From contig JANXYP010000242.1 in assembly GCA_025355955.1 (NCBI GenBank), forward strand, positions 1-47,508: DNA of 47,508 nucleotides. Direction: 5' to 3'. How positions within the stretch are numbered: position 1 is the first letter of the stretch; each line of letters begins with the position of its first letter. Below, one piece after another: positions 8,472 to 42,117 of this stretch. Source of the stretch: Chloroflexota bacterium (lineage in GTDB: Bacteria > Chloroflexota > Chloroflexia > QHBQ01). The position numbers and the translations under genes were made by a program. Below the pieces are notes generated by a model. That model made no database searches, had not been told where the DNA came from, and saw only the letters and a list, made by a program, of their open reading frames with translations.

Positions 8472-8958
8472 CGGCGCTGCCACTGCGCTGCGTCGCCTGG
8501 CGGTAGAGCAGGCTGACAGGGGTGAGCAGCAGCCCCGCCAGGGTGAGCGCGGCACGTAGCCCCCAGCCGTTGCCCACTGCGCCGACCACCGGCCCGCCTG
8601 CCACCTGCCCCAGCGCGTTTAGCTGGCTGCTGAATGACAGCACGGTGGCCCGCACTTTGGGGTCGAGGTTCTGGTTTAGCCACGCGCTGTACAGCGGCCA
8701 GTTGATGGTGTCGGCTATCACCTTCAGCCACAGCGCCACTACCGCCAGCGCAAAGTTGCCCACCAGCGCGAAGCCGATCACGCACCCGCTAGTCAGCACG
8801 TTGACCATCATCAGCACGCGGGTCAGTCGCGCCGTGTTGCTGATGTCGGTGCGGCGCACGAACAACTCGGTGGTGATGAAGCTGATGATAGTGCTGACCA
8901 CGCTGATGATGCCAAACCAGTCCTGCGGCTGCAGCGCACCCACGATGGGATACAGGGG
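8437..8958 (-). pseudogene. MFS transporter C-terminal fragment
   Basis: 168-aa ORF corresponds to the last TM helices of an MFS protein; coding continues in frame to about 8958 (PLYPIVGALQP...) and stops at a repeat element. Confidence 0.6.
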
Positions 8959-9193
8959 GTCTGGGGGTAAGCCCCCAGCTGCTGAATTGCATAAATGCTG
9001 GGTTCGAGTAGTACGGTTGGCAGTGCGGCAGTTGCTAGCCGGTGTTTACGAGTAGCACAAATAATACCAATTAGCTATGGTGTCGCTATAGTTTGGGCCA
9101 GGGCGAACAACGGCTCGCCACTACAGAATTGTAGCATCTCCTTAGCGAACTGGTATAAGTTGCAGCATCTGGGGGCTTACCCCTAGACTTCCC
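8955..9193. repeat. inverted-repeat element, about 240 bp, with a nested 93-bp element
   Basis: GGGGGTCTGGGGGTAAGCCCCCAGCTGCTGAA... at left; reverse complement of right end GGGAAGTCTAGGGGTAAGCCCCCAGATGCTGCAA. Confidence 0.65.
9064..9156. repeat. 93-bp inverted-repeat element, copy 1
   Basis: ATACCAATTAG...CTGGTAT with internal GAACAACGGCTCGCC palindrome; aligns with copies at 45290 and 46865. Confidence 0.7.
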
Positions 9194-9448
9194 TGAGTCG
9201 TACTCGACTTTCGTCTTATTTTGATGCCAATGGGCGGCTGTGTAGGGCTTCACCCTTATTGACCCTGGGCGGACGTGTTGGGGCGCACCGATGTGCGCCC
9301 TGATGGTGACAGTGTTACCGAGTATTAAAAGCAGGTTAGAAGCCGCCCGCCAGAGAAACTTTGTCTGGTGGGCGGTGTAATTTAGGGCAGAGATAACTCC
9401 GTGCCAAACCCAATGGCAATTGTATCAAGAGAGATGGAGAGCAAGCGA

Positions 9449-11704
9449 ATGAATACAGCGCTCAAATGGATAATCGGCATCGTGGTGGTAGCCGCCGTCG
9501 TGGTGGGCGGGTTCTTCCTGTTCAAGGGACAGCAGAACAACGCCAGCGCCGCCGCTACCGTCAATACCGCGCAGGTAACCCGCGATACAATCCAGGCCAC
9601 GGTCAGCAGCAACGGCGCGGTGCAGCCCAATGCCGACCTTAACCTCGCGTTCGGCTCGAGCGGCACCGTTGCCCAGGTCAATGTCAAGGCGGGCCAGCGA
9701 GTCAAGACTGGCGATGTGCTAGCCAAGATTGACGACAGCCAGTTGCAACTGGCGGTTACGCAGGCTCAAGCGGGCCTGGCTTCGGCACAGGCCAACCTGG
9801 ACACCACCAAAGCAGGCGCAACCCAGAAGGACCTCACCGATGCTCAGGCCACCCTGAACTCGGCTAAAGCCAGCTACGACAAGGCCAAGACTGGCGGCTA
9901 CACTGCGGGCGACATTGCCAACGCTAAGGCCCAGCTTGCCTCAGCCCAGGCCAAGCTAGCCCAACTCAAGGTTGGCCCCACTGCTACCGACATCGCTAGC
10001 GCTAAGGCGACCCTCGACTCCGCCAGGATCAAGCTAGATCAGGCCCAGCATGGTAACGCCACCACTGCGGACATCGCCAGCGCCAAGGCCGCGCTCGACT
10101 CCGCCAAGATCAAGCTGCAGCAGGCCATCAACGGCAACGCCACTGCCAGCGATATTGCCACCGCCCAGGCCGCGCTCGATGCCGCCAAGGCCAAGCTGGC
10201 TACGGTGCAGGCTGGCCCCACCCAATCGACGGTCAGCGCTGCCCAGTTGAAAGTGACGGACGCGCAAACCTCGTTGGACAAGACCATCTCGCAGCAGCAG
10301 GCCAGCGTAAACGCCGCCCTCGATGCCCGCAACCAGGCCGACAATGCGGTGCGTAACGCCCAGGATAATCTCAACACGGTGTTTGCCCAGACCCATGATA
10401 GCAACGGCAACTTCAGGAGCGATCCCACTAACTCGCCCAACCACTTTGAGGATTTGTACGCCACGGCCCAGCGCACCCTGGCCGATGCGGTCAGCAGCCA
10501 GGACAAAGCCGCCACCGCTTACAGTGATGCACTGGTGCAGCAGCAAAACAGCGTGCAGGCGGCGCAGTCCGCCCTCGCAGATGCCAAGCAGCAGCTAACC
10601 GATACCCTCAAACCCCCCACCGCTGCTTCGGATCTAGCCTCGGCCCAGTCGGCAGTGGTTTCGGCGCAAGCCAGCCTCGACAAGCTGACCAAAGGCAGCA
10701 CTAGCAGCGACATCCAGACGGCGCAACTGGCGGTGGATCAGGCCCAGGCCAGCTACAATAAGCTGACCCAGGGCAGCACTGCTTCTGACATCAAGGCGGC
10801 GCAGGATGCGGTAACCCAGGCGCAGGCCAGCTACGACAAGTTGTTTGTTGCCGCCACTCCCGACACGATTGCCGCCGCCCAGGCGGCGGTAGTCTCGGCC
10901 CAGGCCAGCTACGATAAGATCGTCAATGGCGGCACTGCCGACGACCTTGCCACCGCCCAGTCGCAGGTGGATCAGGCGCAGGCTGCGCTTGATAATCTGA
11001 AGGCGGGGCCAACCCAGCAAGCCCTCAGCGTCTCGATGGCAAGCGTGGAGCAGGCTCAGGCCACCCTCGACCTCGACAAGCTGAAGCTGGTTGATGCGGT
11101 AATCACCGCCCCGTTCGGTGGCGTGGTAAACGCGGTCAACGTGGTATCGGGGCAGGTAATCGCCAGCGGCGCCGCCGTCGAATTGATTGACGATAGCAGC
11201 TACCATATCGACATCAATGTAGGCGAGGCGGATGTATCCAAGCTGGCGCTGGGTGAGGACGTAAACATTACCTTCGATGCAGTGCCAACCGCGACCGTGA
11301 CCGGCAAGCTCACCTTCATCGCCACCAAGAGTACGGTGTCTTCAAACGTAGTCAGCTACCTTACCACCATCACCATAGACTCAAAAACCGCTGCGGCAGC
11401 GGGGGTGAAGGCGGGGATGACCGCCAACGCGAACATCATCTACTTGTCGCACGCCAGCGTGCTGCTGGTACCCAACCGCGCGATTAAGACAGTGAGCGGG
11501 CAGAAGACCGTAACCGTGCGTAGCGGGGGGGTCAACCATGACGTTGCCGTGCAGACCGGCCTGAGCGACGGCACTAACACGGAGATTACCAGCAGCGACA
11601 TCGCTGAGGGCGATACGGTGGTGATTAACGCAACCACGACGACTACGAACGGTGGCGGTGGCGGCGGTGGTCGTGGTGGTTTCGGCGGCGGCTTCGGCGG
11701 CTAA
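9449..11704 (+). CDS. HlyD/MacA-type efflux adaptor with very long repetitive coiled coil
   Basis: N-terminal TM; QPNADLNLAFGSSGTVAQVNVKAGQRVKTGDVLAKIDDSQL lipoyl-like domain; C-terminal beta-barrel region. ATG 9449 with GGAGA upstream; ORF track starts at 9401. Confidence 0.85.
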   Translation: MNTALKWIIGIVVVAAVVVGGFFLFKGQQNNASAAATVNTAQVTRDTIQATVSSNGAVQPNADLNLAFGSSGTVAQVNVKAGQRVKTGDVLAKIDDSQLQLAVTQAQAGLASAQANLDTTKAGATQKDLTDAQATLNSAKASYDKAKTGGYTAGDIANAKAQLASAQAKLAQLKVGPTATDIASAKATLDSARIKLDQAQHGNATTADIASAKAALDSAKIKLQQAINGNATASDIATAQAALDAAKAKLATVQAGPTQSTVSAAQLKVTDAQTSLDKTISQQQASVNAALDARNQADNAVRNAQDNLNTVFAQTHDSNGNFRSDPTNSPNHFEDLYATAQRTLADAVSSQDKAATAYSDALVQQQNSVQAAQSALADAKQQLTDTLKPPTAASDLASAQSAVVSAQASLDKLTKGSTSSDIQTAQLAVDQAQASYNKLTQGSTASDIKAAQDAVTQAQASYDKLFVAATPDTIAAAQAAVVSAQASYDKIVNGGTADDLATAQSQVDQAQAALDNLKAGPTQQALSVSMASVEQAQATLDLDKLKLVDAVITAPFGGVVNAVNVVSGQVIASGAAVELIDDSSYHIDINVGEADVSKLALGEDVNITFDAVPTATVTGKLTFIATKSTVSSNVVSYLTTITIDSKTAAAAGVKAGMTANANIIYLSHASVLLVPNRAIKTVSGQKTVTVRSGGVNHDVAVQTGLSDGTNTEITSSDIAEGDTVVINATTTTTNGGGGGGGRGGFGGGFGG

Positions 11705-37836: not shown

Positions 37837-37920
37837 GGGACGGATAGGCAAGGTCGAGCAGGCCAGCTTCATAACGAGGCTGGCTCTTTCTCTTCCCCCG
37901 GCCTCCTGTTCCTGGTTGCT

Positions 37921-37987
37921 CTTAACAACCCCTTAACAAACTCTTTACTTACCGTTAAACTGAACTTAAACCGAGTTTAATCCCCCT
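37921..37987 (+). promoter_or_regulatory. Pho-box-like array: six 11-bp repeats of CTTAAC type
   Basis: TTAAC/TTTAC/TTAAA-type pentamers begin at 37922, 37933, 37944, 37955, 37966, 37977; -10-like TATACT at 37992-37997. Confidence 0.75.
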
Positions 37988-38165
37988 CGCTTATACTACC
38001 CCTGCAACCATGAAGCAACGTCAACCCAGCGGCAAGCAGTACCCAGCAATTTTCGTTCTCTATATCTTCCACCTCACTACCCCGCCTCAGTTATCCCCTC
38101 GCTTGGCAGCCAGTGCGCCCCCCGCGCTGTGCTGCTTGGGGAAAGAGAGCAGGACTGACGTTAAT

Positions 38166-38606
38166 ATGAGTGCAATCTTGCTAATCCAGGACGATACCAG
38201 CGTGCAGCGGGCGATCAGCCGTCCGTTGGAGCGGGCGGGCCATCGCGTGGTGATCCTGGAAGAGCCGCTGCTGGCTATTGATCTGCTGGATTACCCCAAC
38301 ATCCACTTCGACCTGATCATTGCCGATGTCGCCAGCTTCCGCTATGCTCACCACCAGAATACGCTGGGCCTGCTTTATCGCCGCGCCAGCGCAGTTGGCA
38401 GCCAGGTGCTGGCCTGCACTACCCGTGGCGACCTGCGCCTCTGCGGTCGCTACAGCAACTTGCCCAATCCGTTGCTTACCACCCGCTTTCTGCGCCTGGT
38501 CAGCGCCCTGGTCGCTCCCGATGCGCCACTGGCCGATACGTCAGATATGCCGCCAAGCGAGGTTGCACGGTCGGAAGCCTATACCTGTCTGGGTAGCGGC
38601 AAGTAG
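38166..38606 (+). CDS. receiver-domain-like protein without output domain
   Basis: ILLIQDDTSVQRAISRPLERAGHRVVILEEPLLAIDLL...FDLIIADVASFR; conserved Thr present but KP motif replaced by NP. Confidence 0.65.
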   Translation: MSAILLIQDDTSVQRAISRPLERAGHRVVILEEPLLAIDLLDYPNIHFDLIIADVASFRYAHHQNTLGLLYRRASAVGSQVLACTTRGDLRLCGRYSNLPNPLLTTRFLRLVSALVAPDAPLADTSDMPPSEVARSEAYTCLGSGK

Positions 38607-38638
38607 CCTAATTCGTGATTAGCTGAATACAAAATGTG

Positions 38639-38667
38639 TTTACTTATCAGCGGTCTGGATGTATAAT
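38639..38667 (+). promoter_or_regulatory. possible promoter TTTACT-17-TATAAT
   Basis: TATAAT 38662-38667 upstream of the acidic-protein gene; -35 is weak. Confidence 0.4.
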
Positions 38668-38752
38668 TGCAGCGCAGGGGCAATCCGATGGCAATGCCAC
38701 CCGCCCCCACCTGCAACCTTATACGTTTTCTATTGAAGAGGAGGAAGTCCAG

Positions 38753-39085
38753 ATGACCGCTTTCACTTTTCCCACCGTAGAGCCGCCCTATCGCCCCGCT
38801 CTCATCCCGCTGCTCGGCAATCTCTCATTGGCCGATGAAGCCATACCTGCCGAGGAGTTGGAGGACGAGGAGTTGGATGACGAAGAATTGGATGACGAGG
38901 AGTTGGACGACGAGGATGACGATCTCGACGAGGACGATATTGACGGCGATGACCTCGACGATGATGACGACGAAGAGTTTGAGGAGCTGGACGACGATGA
39001 CCTCGACGATGAGGACGACGAAGAGTTTGAAGACGACGAAGACCTCGACGATGAGGAAGAGGACGTAGTAGCCGAGGGTCAGTAA
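38753..39085 (+). CDS. ultra-acidic Asp/Glu-rich protein
   Basis: ATG 38753 preceded by GAGGAGGAAG; ELEDEELDDEELDDEELDDEDDDLDEDDIDGDDLDDDDDEEFEELDDDDLDDEDDEEFEDDEDLDDEEEDVV. Confidence 0.65.
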   Translation: MTAFTFPTVEPPYRPALIPLLGNLSLADEAIPAEELEDEELDDEELDDEELDDEDDDLDEDDIDGDDLDDDDDEEFEELDDDDLDDEDDEEFEDDEDLDDEEEDVVAEGQ

Positions 39086-39152
39086 GCGGCTCGCCATCGT
39101 TATTTTGCAGATGGGCGGGCTGATTGTAAGCGCAAAGAAAGGCGATACTACT

Positions 39153-40238
39153 ATGCCCGCCCATCTAGGCCGCCCCTTGCGGGCTGCCAGCTTCACCACG
39201 ATTGTCAGCATCTTCCTGATAATAGCTACTTTGGCTAGTTGTGGTGGGGATAGCGCCACCACTGCGACTCCTACCACAACCACCAACTCCACCCCTGGCG
39301 CTACCCTCTCTTCTAGCAGCACGCAAGCCCCCCCGATCAGTAGCACCCCCACCAGTAGCGCCTCGCCAACTGCCACCAGCAATAGCCCGATCAGCAGCAC
39401 CCCCTCTACCATGCCTGTTACCAGCACGGCGGCGATTTCCAGCAGCGGCAAGACCACCATCACCAGCGTCGGCTCGACCGCGCTCTACCCTTTGATTGTC
39501 GAGGCGGCCAAGCAGTTTAAGGTGCTGCGCCCCGATATCGAGGTGCTGATCGACATTGGCGGCAGCGGCGCGGGCCTCACCCGTGTCGCCGCTGACGAGG
39601 TGAATATCGGCAACTCAGATATATACGCCGAAGATCGGGCGGGCATTGATGCAAGCTCATTGGAGGATCACCAGGTCTGCGGCCAGGGCTTCGCGGTCGC
39701 GGTCAATAACGATGTCAAGGTTGACAATCTGACTCGCCAACAGGTAGTAGACATCTTTACCGCAAAGGTCACTAACTGGAAGGATGTTGGCGGCCAGGAC
39801 CTGAAAATCCAGATTATCGCCCGCCCCAAGGGCAGTGGCACGCGCACCACCTTCGACCGCCTTGCCCTCAACAATGCCAAACACAATGGCTCTGTAAACG
39901 AGGCCAACGGCATCAACCTGACTCAGGACTCGAACGCCACCGTCGCCAAAGCCATCGCTAGCACTCCTGGTGCGATCGGCTATCTCGGCCTCGCCTATCT
40001 CAACACCAGCAACGCAGTCAAGAAGGTGAAGTACAACGGCGTAGATGCGACCACCGACAACATCATCAACGGCAGCTATCCGATCTGGTCCTACGGCCAT
40101 ATGTACACCAAAGGCACGCCTGACCTCGCCTCGCAAGCCTTCATCACTTTCATCCTCAGCGACAAGTTCCAGAACGAAACCGTTGGCAAGTTTGACTACA
40201 TCCCTATCAGCAAGTTGCAGAACGTGAAAGCGCCATGA
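39153..40238 (+). CDS. pstS: PstS-like phosphate-binding lipoprotein
   Basis: Lipobox LASC; Ser/Thr/Pro linker; TITSVGSTALYPLIVEAAKQF, IDIGGSGAGLTRVA, ARPKGSGTRTTFDR. Confidence 0.85.
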   Translation: MPAHLGRPLRAASFTTIVSIFLIIATLASCGGDSATTATPTTTTNSTPGATLSSSSTQAPPISSTPTSSASPTATSNSPISSTPSTMPVTSTAAISSSGKTTITSVGSTALYPLIVEAAKQFKVLRPDIEVLIDIGGSGAGLTRVAADEVNIGNSDIYAEDRAGIDASSLEDHQVCGQGFAVAVNNDVKVDNLTRQQVVDIFTAKVTNWKDVGGQDLKIQIIARPKGSGTRTTFDRLALNNAKHNGSVNEANGINLTQDSNATVAKAIASTPGAIGYLGLAYLNTSNAVKKVKYNGVDATTDNIINGSYPIWSYGHMYTKGTPDLASQAFITFILSDKFQNETVGKFDYIPISKLQNVKAP

Positions 40239-40323
40239 CAGTTGCATTAAGCAGACTGGTGTTGGTCGCAGGTGGAATAGCGGCTCTGTCCTTCTCTAAA
40301 TCAGGTTACTCGGAGCAAACCAC

Positions 40324-41949
40324 ATGGCTCGGTATCTACAACGCCTGGGCATTCGTCTTTCGGTCAAGCTGGCGATTAGTTCCATTGCAGTAACCTCTCT
40401 GCTCATCATCATCAGCGTGGCGATTGCCTTTGCGCTTGCCAGCGCTACTGGCAGCATCAACCACTTTCAGATCCTGAATCAGGAAATCGTTTACTCCACC
40501 CAGCTTAACTTCGCGCTAAACTCGGCGATTGATGCCAGCCAGCGCTTGCAGCAGCAGGATCAGCCCACTGTAGCTAACCGCGTGGATTACTATGCTGCAC
40601 GCAAGCCGCTGACCGATGCACAGAGCCAATTGCAGAAGTTGACGGGGTTGCGGGCCGACCCCCAGTGGCAGCAACTAAGCGGCAAGATTGATGAGTTGCT
40701 AGTCGTCCTGGATCAGATTGCCACTCTTGCCCCCACCAATGTGTTCAAGGCCCGCGATCTGTGGAATGTCTCCGCCTTCGACCTCGGCAACGACGCGAAG
40801 GCCCGTGCCTCGTCCTTCAATACTGCCATTCTCGATGAATCAAGTCACACCCGCCAGGACGCACAATCGGGGATTACGCTCGCTGCCAGCGTCCTTGCCA
40901 GCCTGGCGCTAGTCGCAGTCATCGTCAGCATCCTGTTTGGGGTGCTGAACAATGCGGTGTTCGTGCGCCCAATTCGTAGCATCAAGTATGAGCTGGAGCG
41001 CATCGCCGCTGGCGATCTCACTCACCAGTTGAACGTGGACAACAACGACGAGCTTGGCGACCTGGTGCGTACCTTCAACCGCACCGTCTCAGAACTGCGC
41101 GGGCTGATTACCGAACTGAAGCACCAAACTGGCGACATCGAAGGCGCGTCGGTGCAGGTGACTGCCATCTCCCGCCAGCAGTTGGCGGGTAGCCACGAGC
41201 AGGTGCTGGCCCTAACCAGCGCAACCCAACTGGTGGGCGAAATGAAGGCGGCGGCAGCCTTGATCGATCGTAATGCCTCGTCGGTTGCCAGCGCCGCTCG
41301 TCAGGCGTTGGACAGCGCGGCGGCTGGCAGCGAGTCGATCACCGCCAACCTCGTCAGTATGCGCCAGATCGAGGGTAAGGTCTACAACATCAACGCCGAG
41401 GTCAAAGCGCTGAACGAGGGGCTGACCCAGGTGGGCCGCATCCTGGAGCTTATGGACGACCTGGCAACCGACAGCGAGTTGCTGTCGTTTAATGCCTTGA
41501 TTGAAGCAAGCGGTGCCGGGCCGCACAGCCGCCGTTTCGCCATCGTTGCTACTGAACTGAGCAGCCTGGCGCAGCGTTCCAAGGATGCGACCAAAGAGGT
41601 GCAGGACATTATCACCTCGGTGCAGGCGGCGATGCGTAGCTCGCTCGATGCCACCCAGGAGGGCTTGCGGGAAGTGGCACGTGGCACTGAATTGTCGCGC
41701 CGCAGCGAGGTTGCCACCCGCGAAATCGTCAGCGCTGTCTCGCATACTGTTGTGCTGGCCGATAGCATTCTCAATAGCACCACCAAGCAGCACAATGCCA
41801 GCGAACAGGTTGCCAGCACCATCCAGGCGGTCAACCTGGTGGCCGCCAATAACCTCGGCACCAGCGACAAAGCGGCCTGCACCGCCAGCCGCCTCACCGT
41901 CATCGCTAGCCAGCTACGCGATGCCGCTGGCAACTTCGAGGTAAACTAA
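40324..41949 (+). CDS. MCP-like protein (TM sensor, HAMP, signalling domain)
   Basis: Two TM segments, VRPIRSIKYELERIAAGDLTHQLNVDNNDELGDLVRTFN HAMP, ELLSFNALIEASGAGPHSRRFAIVATELSSLAQRSKDATKEVQDII. Confidence 0.82.
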   Translation: MARYLQRLGIRLSVKLAISSIAVTSLLIIISVAIAFALASATGSINHFQILNQEIVYSTQLNFALNSAIDASQRLQQQDQPTVANRVDYYAARKPLTDAQSQLQKLTGLRADPQWQQLSGKIDELLVVLDQIATLAPTNVFKARDLWNVSAFDLGNDAKARASSFNTAILDESSHTRQDAQSGITLAASVLASLALVAVIVSILFGVLNNAVFVRPIRSIKYELERIAAGDLTHQLNVDNNDELGDLVRTFNRTVSELRGLITELKHQTGDIEGASVQVTAISRQQLAGSHEQVLALTSATQLVGEMKAAAALIDRNASSVASAARQALDSAAAGSESITANLVSMRQIEGKVYNINAEVKALNEGLTQVGRILELMDDLATDSELLSFNALIEASGAGPHSRRFAIVATELSSLAQRSKDATKEVQDIITSVQAAMRSSLDATQEGLREVARGTELSRRSEVATREIVSAVSHTVVLADSILNSTTKQHNASEQVASTIQAVNLVAANNLGTSDKAACTASRLTVIASQLRDAAGNFEVN

Positions 41950-42117
41950 TAGGCTGTCTGATAACTCAGTTGACCGTGCCGGGCAGCAGCGCGGGCCACC
42001 GCCCGCCCCTACGTGTAGCCCAATCCGTTTATCCGTTTTTACAATCCGTTGGCTAAAATCCGCTGGCCGTCCCACCCCTTGACATAACCCTCGGCACACG
42101 TCTATACTGCCCCTATC

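Follow-up and report, generated by a model that had tools for sequence, protein, structure and literature searches.

Results

Gene organization of the locus

The window, that is, the whole stretch of 47,508 nucleotides that was analyzed, carries on its forward strand an array of 11-bp-phased repeats (37921–37981), followed by a TATACT −10 element (37992–37997) and a series of open reading frames. From the position of the −10, transcription is predicted to start at 38004, about 7 bp downstream. The first ORF (38166–38606, +) encodes 146 residues, has an additional in-frame ATG at 38010 and gave no Pfam match. Receivers were among the best fold matches of its single-sequence structure model (mean pLDDT 67.8); as this model is of low confidence, the receiver-like fold is suggestive only. 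The position of the conserved lysine is apparently replaced (NPLL). The leader contains no RNA element matching Rfam up to E = 1.

Further downstream on the same strand lie a very acidic, low-complexity ORF of about 110 residues counted from its ATG (38753–39085), a gene for a phosphate-binding protein of the PstS family (39153–40238; TIGR02136, 240 bits for a cut-off of 206.6) and a gene for a transducer-like protein with HAMP and MCPsignal domains (40324–41949). A sigma-70-like promoter, TTTACT-17-TATAAT, is found upstream of the acidic ORF (38639–38667, +) and matches the consensus at 10 of 12 positions; by chance alone, 2.4 matches of this kind would be expected over the scanned stretch. 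On the + strand, nothing resembling a terminator was found between the array and position 42079, where a strong promoter (TTGACA-18-TATACT, 42079–42108) separates the MCP-like gene from an SLT-domain gene. The transcription unit therefore likely spans 38004–41949, with the MCP-like gene as its probable last gene, and includes a second start that may be independent of Pi.

Just upstream of the array, a terminator-like hairpin is present on the + strand (37861–37885), with the sequence GGCCAGCTTCATAACGAGGCTGGCT followed by CTTTCTCTTC. No ORF obviously ends there; the hairpin may form the end of a small RNA transcribed from the + strand, or it may have arisen by chance.

The gene set at 38166–41949 (receiver-like ORF, acidic ORF, orphan PstS without pstCAB and HAMP-MCP transducer) was not seen in the relatives and may serve in the sensing of phosphate or in taxis. 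Searching 60 relatives with the receiver-like ORF returned no ortholog of this ORF or of the locus, only weak matches to receiver domains of other proteins. As no relative carrying the locus was found, the window array itself is without phylogenetic confirmation. Among named genomes, the best match of the window PstS is a Chloroflexi record, and many of the next ones are from Gemmatimonadetes; on this basis, the genome probably belongs to the Chloroflexota.

The array contains six units in 11-bp phase

The array reads CTTAACAACCC CTTAACAAACT CTTTACTTACC GTTAAACTGAA CTTAAACCGAG TTTAAT (37921–37981, +). Its units begin with CTTAAC, CTTAAC, CTTTAC, GTTAAA, CTTAAA and TTTAAT, only the first 6 bp being given for the last one, and follow the pattern (C/G/T)TTWA(C/A/T). 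Their pentamers start at 37922, 37933, 37944, 37955, 37966 and 37977, a spacing of exactly 11 bp. The array thus has the make-up of a Pho box, a conserved core repeated directly every 11 bp. Its four-unit core pattern is matched exactly only once in the window, where 0.04 are expected even with up to 3 mismatches allowed.

We scored the units with a position weight matrix built from 70 units of 20 other arrays, the window array being left out. Units 1 to 6 obtained 13.4, 12.2, 8.5, 8.2, 8.3 and 5.1 bits. Their sum of 55.7 bits compares with 18.9 bits at the best other position or strand of the window, and with maxima of −13.4 when the whole window was dinucleotide-shuffled 60 times and 6.1 when the intergenic region was shuffled 5000 times. 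The slots immediately flanking the array score below −20 on both sides, so the array comprises exactly six units. The sixth (TTTAAT) is the weakest, and only five of the units satisfy the strict TTWAM definition. Direct reading and the comparison with shuffles bear out what the sequence-only reading had described, namely six units in 11-bp phase followed by a TATACT without a good −35.

The −10 element is locked in register with the array

No good −35 is found 17 bp upstream of TATACT (37992–37997). The −10 starts 15 bp past the start and 10 bp past the end of the last pentamer. In 37 arrays, we measured how far −10-like hexamers (NANNNT, at least 4/6 matches) lie from the point where the last strict pentamer begins. 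Two arrays upstream of GT4 glycosyltransferase genes were left out of this count because the pattern used to find them already contained a −10. Such a hexamer lies at exactly 15 bp in 18 arrays, and the register of 15, 26 or 37 bp holds one in 26 of the 37, against 1 to 7 arrays for each of the ten other registers. Counted from the sixth unit (37977), the window −10 lies at 15 bp, and counted from the last strict pentamer (37966), at 26 bp; it is therefore in register either way.

A regulator that stands in for the −35 contact requires such a fixed distance between array and −10. In E. coli, pho boxes sit 10 bp upstream of TAN3T/A (PMC1906773), and strict spacing is a topic of discussion in PMC10294691. 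The window array likewise occupies the place of the −35 at a fixed distance from a TANNNT −10. Its proposed location at the −35 position, adjoining the −10, is upheld by the register found across arrays.

The same motif precedes phosphate genes in the genome

The pattern TTWAM-N6-TTWAM-N6-TTWAM occurs at five sites in the 5.15 Mb of the window's own genome and once in the reversed control. On contig C45, an array of seven slots, six of them filled, lies upstream of a pstS-(637-aa PBP)-pstC-pstA-pstB-phoU operon, in which pstS, the PBP protein and phoU were named by profile, and pstC, pstA and pstB by position and sequence. The 637-aa protein (8862–10772 of locus L060, contig G000:C45), encoded between pstS and pstC, has a C-terminal PBP_like_2 domain. 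Other arrays are found upstream of genes for a secreted Type I phosphodiesterase (C60), a UgpA-like permease (C247) and tatA (C258), the last one with a larger distance to its −10. The motif is thus present before the pst operon and before other phosphate genes of the same genome.

A search for two units followed by a −10 at the right spacing brought in two GT4 glycosyltransferase genes (C47 and C242) and also matched on C230 and C303, with no clear phosphate gene downstream; its control gave two matches. Glycolipid synthesis is common among responses to Pi starvation, and we infer that it may tie the GT4 glycosyltransferases to this response.

Arrays recur before phosphate genes in relatives

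The relatives found belong at best to the same class. In these genomes, arrays precede pstS at five loci (L021, L035, L037, L038, L110), genes for UgpA-like permeases (L020, L032, L089, L104), UgpB (L046), PhoX (L028, L102, L103), a PF00245 alkaline phosphatase (L019), a 5′-nucleotidase (L036) and an ExeM/NucH-type nuclease (L041), and phnC (L106). Association with Pho genes is therefore seen in related organisms as well, and the enrichment whose absence had been named as a refutation of the Pho-box reading is present both there and in the window's own genome. At L106 (G011:C29), the arrays are divergent, one facing phnC and the other facing a HAD-like hydrolase gene. Some arrays lie upstream of genes without an obvious link to Pi (tatA, a cation symporter and a TPR-like protein), and those of the AT-rich family f3 count less because many reversed-control matches occur there.

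Four strict units are matched in 11 of 160 class genomes. Outside the window, 16 such places were found, 10 before the kinds of phosphate genes listed above, while the context of the other 6 is unclear or unrelated to phosphate. In a single genus, two genomes (L111 and L105; G015:C58 and G019:C337) share the location of a four-unit array that is followed, in register, by a TAGGAT −10; downstream there is no clear gene, only a convergent lipoyl synthase-like ORF, and this locus is a candidate Pi-regulated small RNA.

Among 399 genomes of the phylum, five strict units occur only in the window and in one other genome, of about 0.9 Mb, where the array (L203, G282:C19) stands between a gene for a PhoR/PnpS/WalK-like kinase and mgsA (methylglyoxal synthase)-pstS. 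The arrangement of PhoR-like kinase, array and pstS is found for two arrays in relatives.

We also scanned 80 loci of named genomes, mostly from other phyla, collected by their related PstS, with units defined as TTWAH, slightly looser than TTWAM. Runs of at least three units were found at two loci only, L180 (Bacillota) and L188 (Deltaproteobacteria), and two phased units upstream of 3 of the 10 loci from Chloroflexi-type records (L130, L163 and L169).

A candidate regulator

The genome encodes about 15 OmpR-type regulators. Contig C73 carries both the best match to the PhoB model (TIGR02154, 249 bits against a cut-off of 296) and the best match to the PhoR model (TIGR02966, 259 bits against a cut-off of 334), each thus falling short of its cut-off; the two genes lie on opposite strands, some 4.6 kb from each other. 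Among solved structures, the one closest to the PhoB-like regulator is RegX3, which forms with SenX3 the Pi-responsive pair of M. smegmatis (reviewed in PMC4415409). The C73 regulator scores higher against the YycF and MtrA models than against PhoB; as its PhoB score also falls short of the cut-off, sequence does not settle its identity. Near its gene, no array was seen. Judging by gene company, which includes the PhoR/PnpS-like kinase encoded on C73 as well, this RegX3/PhoB-like gene (C73:9653–10630) is the best candidate for the regulator.

Discussion

We propose, with a probability of about 0.92, that the array is a Pho box, the extended operator of a Chloroflexota response regulator of the PhoB/PhoP/SphR type. 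The same array, at the same distance from the promoter, precedes phosphate-uptake and phosphatase genes in its own genome and in distant relatives, and is thus almost certainly the operator of a phosphate-starvation activator. These shared occurrences and the register-locked −10 support the Pho-box interpretation first made from the sequence.

The PhoP box of Bacillus subtilis is made of TTAACA-type repeats; its half-site is very similar to that of the window array, while phylum and number of units differ. A parallel that extends to the targets comes from Synechocystis, in which SphR binds at least three direct repeats of CTTAACCT-N3 (PMC1906773). The two boxes share the CTTAAC half-site, the 11-bp period and similar targets (sphX, pst, phoA and nucH; PMC1906773), but the SphR box has three units, the window array has six, and the phyla differ. 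The fixed −10 spacing is what we saw in our own set of arrays. The E. coli PhoB box also consists of 11-bp direct repeats in place of the −35, with a TAN3T/A −10 following after about 10 bp (PMC1906773, PMC4415409). It is built, however, of two 11-nt CTGTCAT units with a TGTCA half-site, whereas the window array has TTAAC and more units; multiple boxes are known at E. coli ugp (PMC4415409). The Streptomyces coelicolor PhoP operator of pitH2 has four core and two ancillary 11-nt DRu's under a 64-nt footprint (PMC7866108) and shares with the window array six 11-nt direct repeat units, some of them weaker, although its half-site, GTTCACC (PMC4415409), is unlike that of the array and the phyla differ. 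The sequence-only reading had called six units longer than usual. This holds for the phylum, three or four strict units being usual in our sample, but six units have a precedent in the pitH2 operator.

Under Pi limitation, a phosphorylated regulator of the PhoB/PhoP/SphR type would occupy the array head to tail, with one DNA-binding domain per 11-bp unit and thus three dimers on the six units. As the promoter-proximal unit takes the place of the −35, the bound regulator would bring RNA polymerase of the sigma-70 type to the −10 at 37992. Transcription would then be activated from near 38004, entering the receiver-like ORF first and reaching the acidic, pstS and MCP-like genes by read-through. 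The sequence-only reading had predicted control of all these genes alike. Control of the receiver-like ORF is likely; that of the other three is less certain because the sigma-70-like promoter lies in between (38639–38667), and would require read-through past it.

Another OmpR-family regulator that binds direct repeats (WalR/YycF-, MtrA- or RpaB-like) might use the array as its operator, the Pho genes being part of a wider stress regulon. The number of OmpR-type regulators, the preference of the best PhoB candidate for the YycF and MtrA models and the few arrays upstream of non-phosphate genes would fit this explanation. We consider it improbable, since phosphate acquisition accounts for most identifiable targets, a whole pst-phoU operon included, and since two arrays in relatives stand between a PhoR-like kinase gene and pstS. 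A chance or structural repeat acting without any regulator, for instance as a phased bend, is more improbable by far. TTAA-rich phased tracts can bend DNA, but the phase is strictly 11 bp and not the helical 10.5 bp, shuffles never approach the score of the array, and neither its recurrence before Pho genes nor the register of the −10 would be expected.

A question of scope is whether the array controls the receiver-like ORF (or a leader transcript) only, the acidic ORF, pstS and the MCP-like gene being transcribed from 38639–38667 and not regulated by Pi here. This is compatible with a Pho box, and we regard it as a possible, if less likely, arrangement. The 10/12 match of TTTACT-17-TATAAT speaks for it. 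Against it, pstS is a typical Pho target, the + strand from the array to 42079 is free of terminator-like sites, and consensus matches alone are weak promoter evidence at the rate expected by chance.

With the array taken as a Pho box, a broader and tentative picture, which we think rather doubtful as a whole, is that the Chloroflexota have a distinct Pho-box grammar: long arrays of three to seven 11-bp CTTAAC units, of which the last keeps a fixed distance of 15 bp to the −10, while the length of the array tunes how strongly, or at what threshold, induction occurs. In this picture, the window array would drive a module specific to its lineage, and the degenerate receiver, the acidic protein, PstS and the MCP-like transducer of this module would link the binding of phosphate to signalling or taxis.

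We found no paper on a Chloroflexota Pho box in the open-access collection searched, and such work may exist elsewhere. The window array is well supported, from genomic evidence, as a putative instance of a familiar type of switch in a little-studied phylum. It provides a testable consensus for the phosphate-starvation regulon of Chloroflexota: CTTAAC(A/C)NNNN repeated every 11 bp, followed by a −10 whose first base lies 15 bp downstream of the first base of the last TTAAC. This consensus allows phosphate genes to be recognized by their promoters in uncultured genomes, and it ties some unannotated genes to phosphate starvation.
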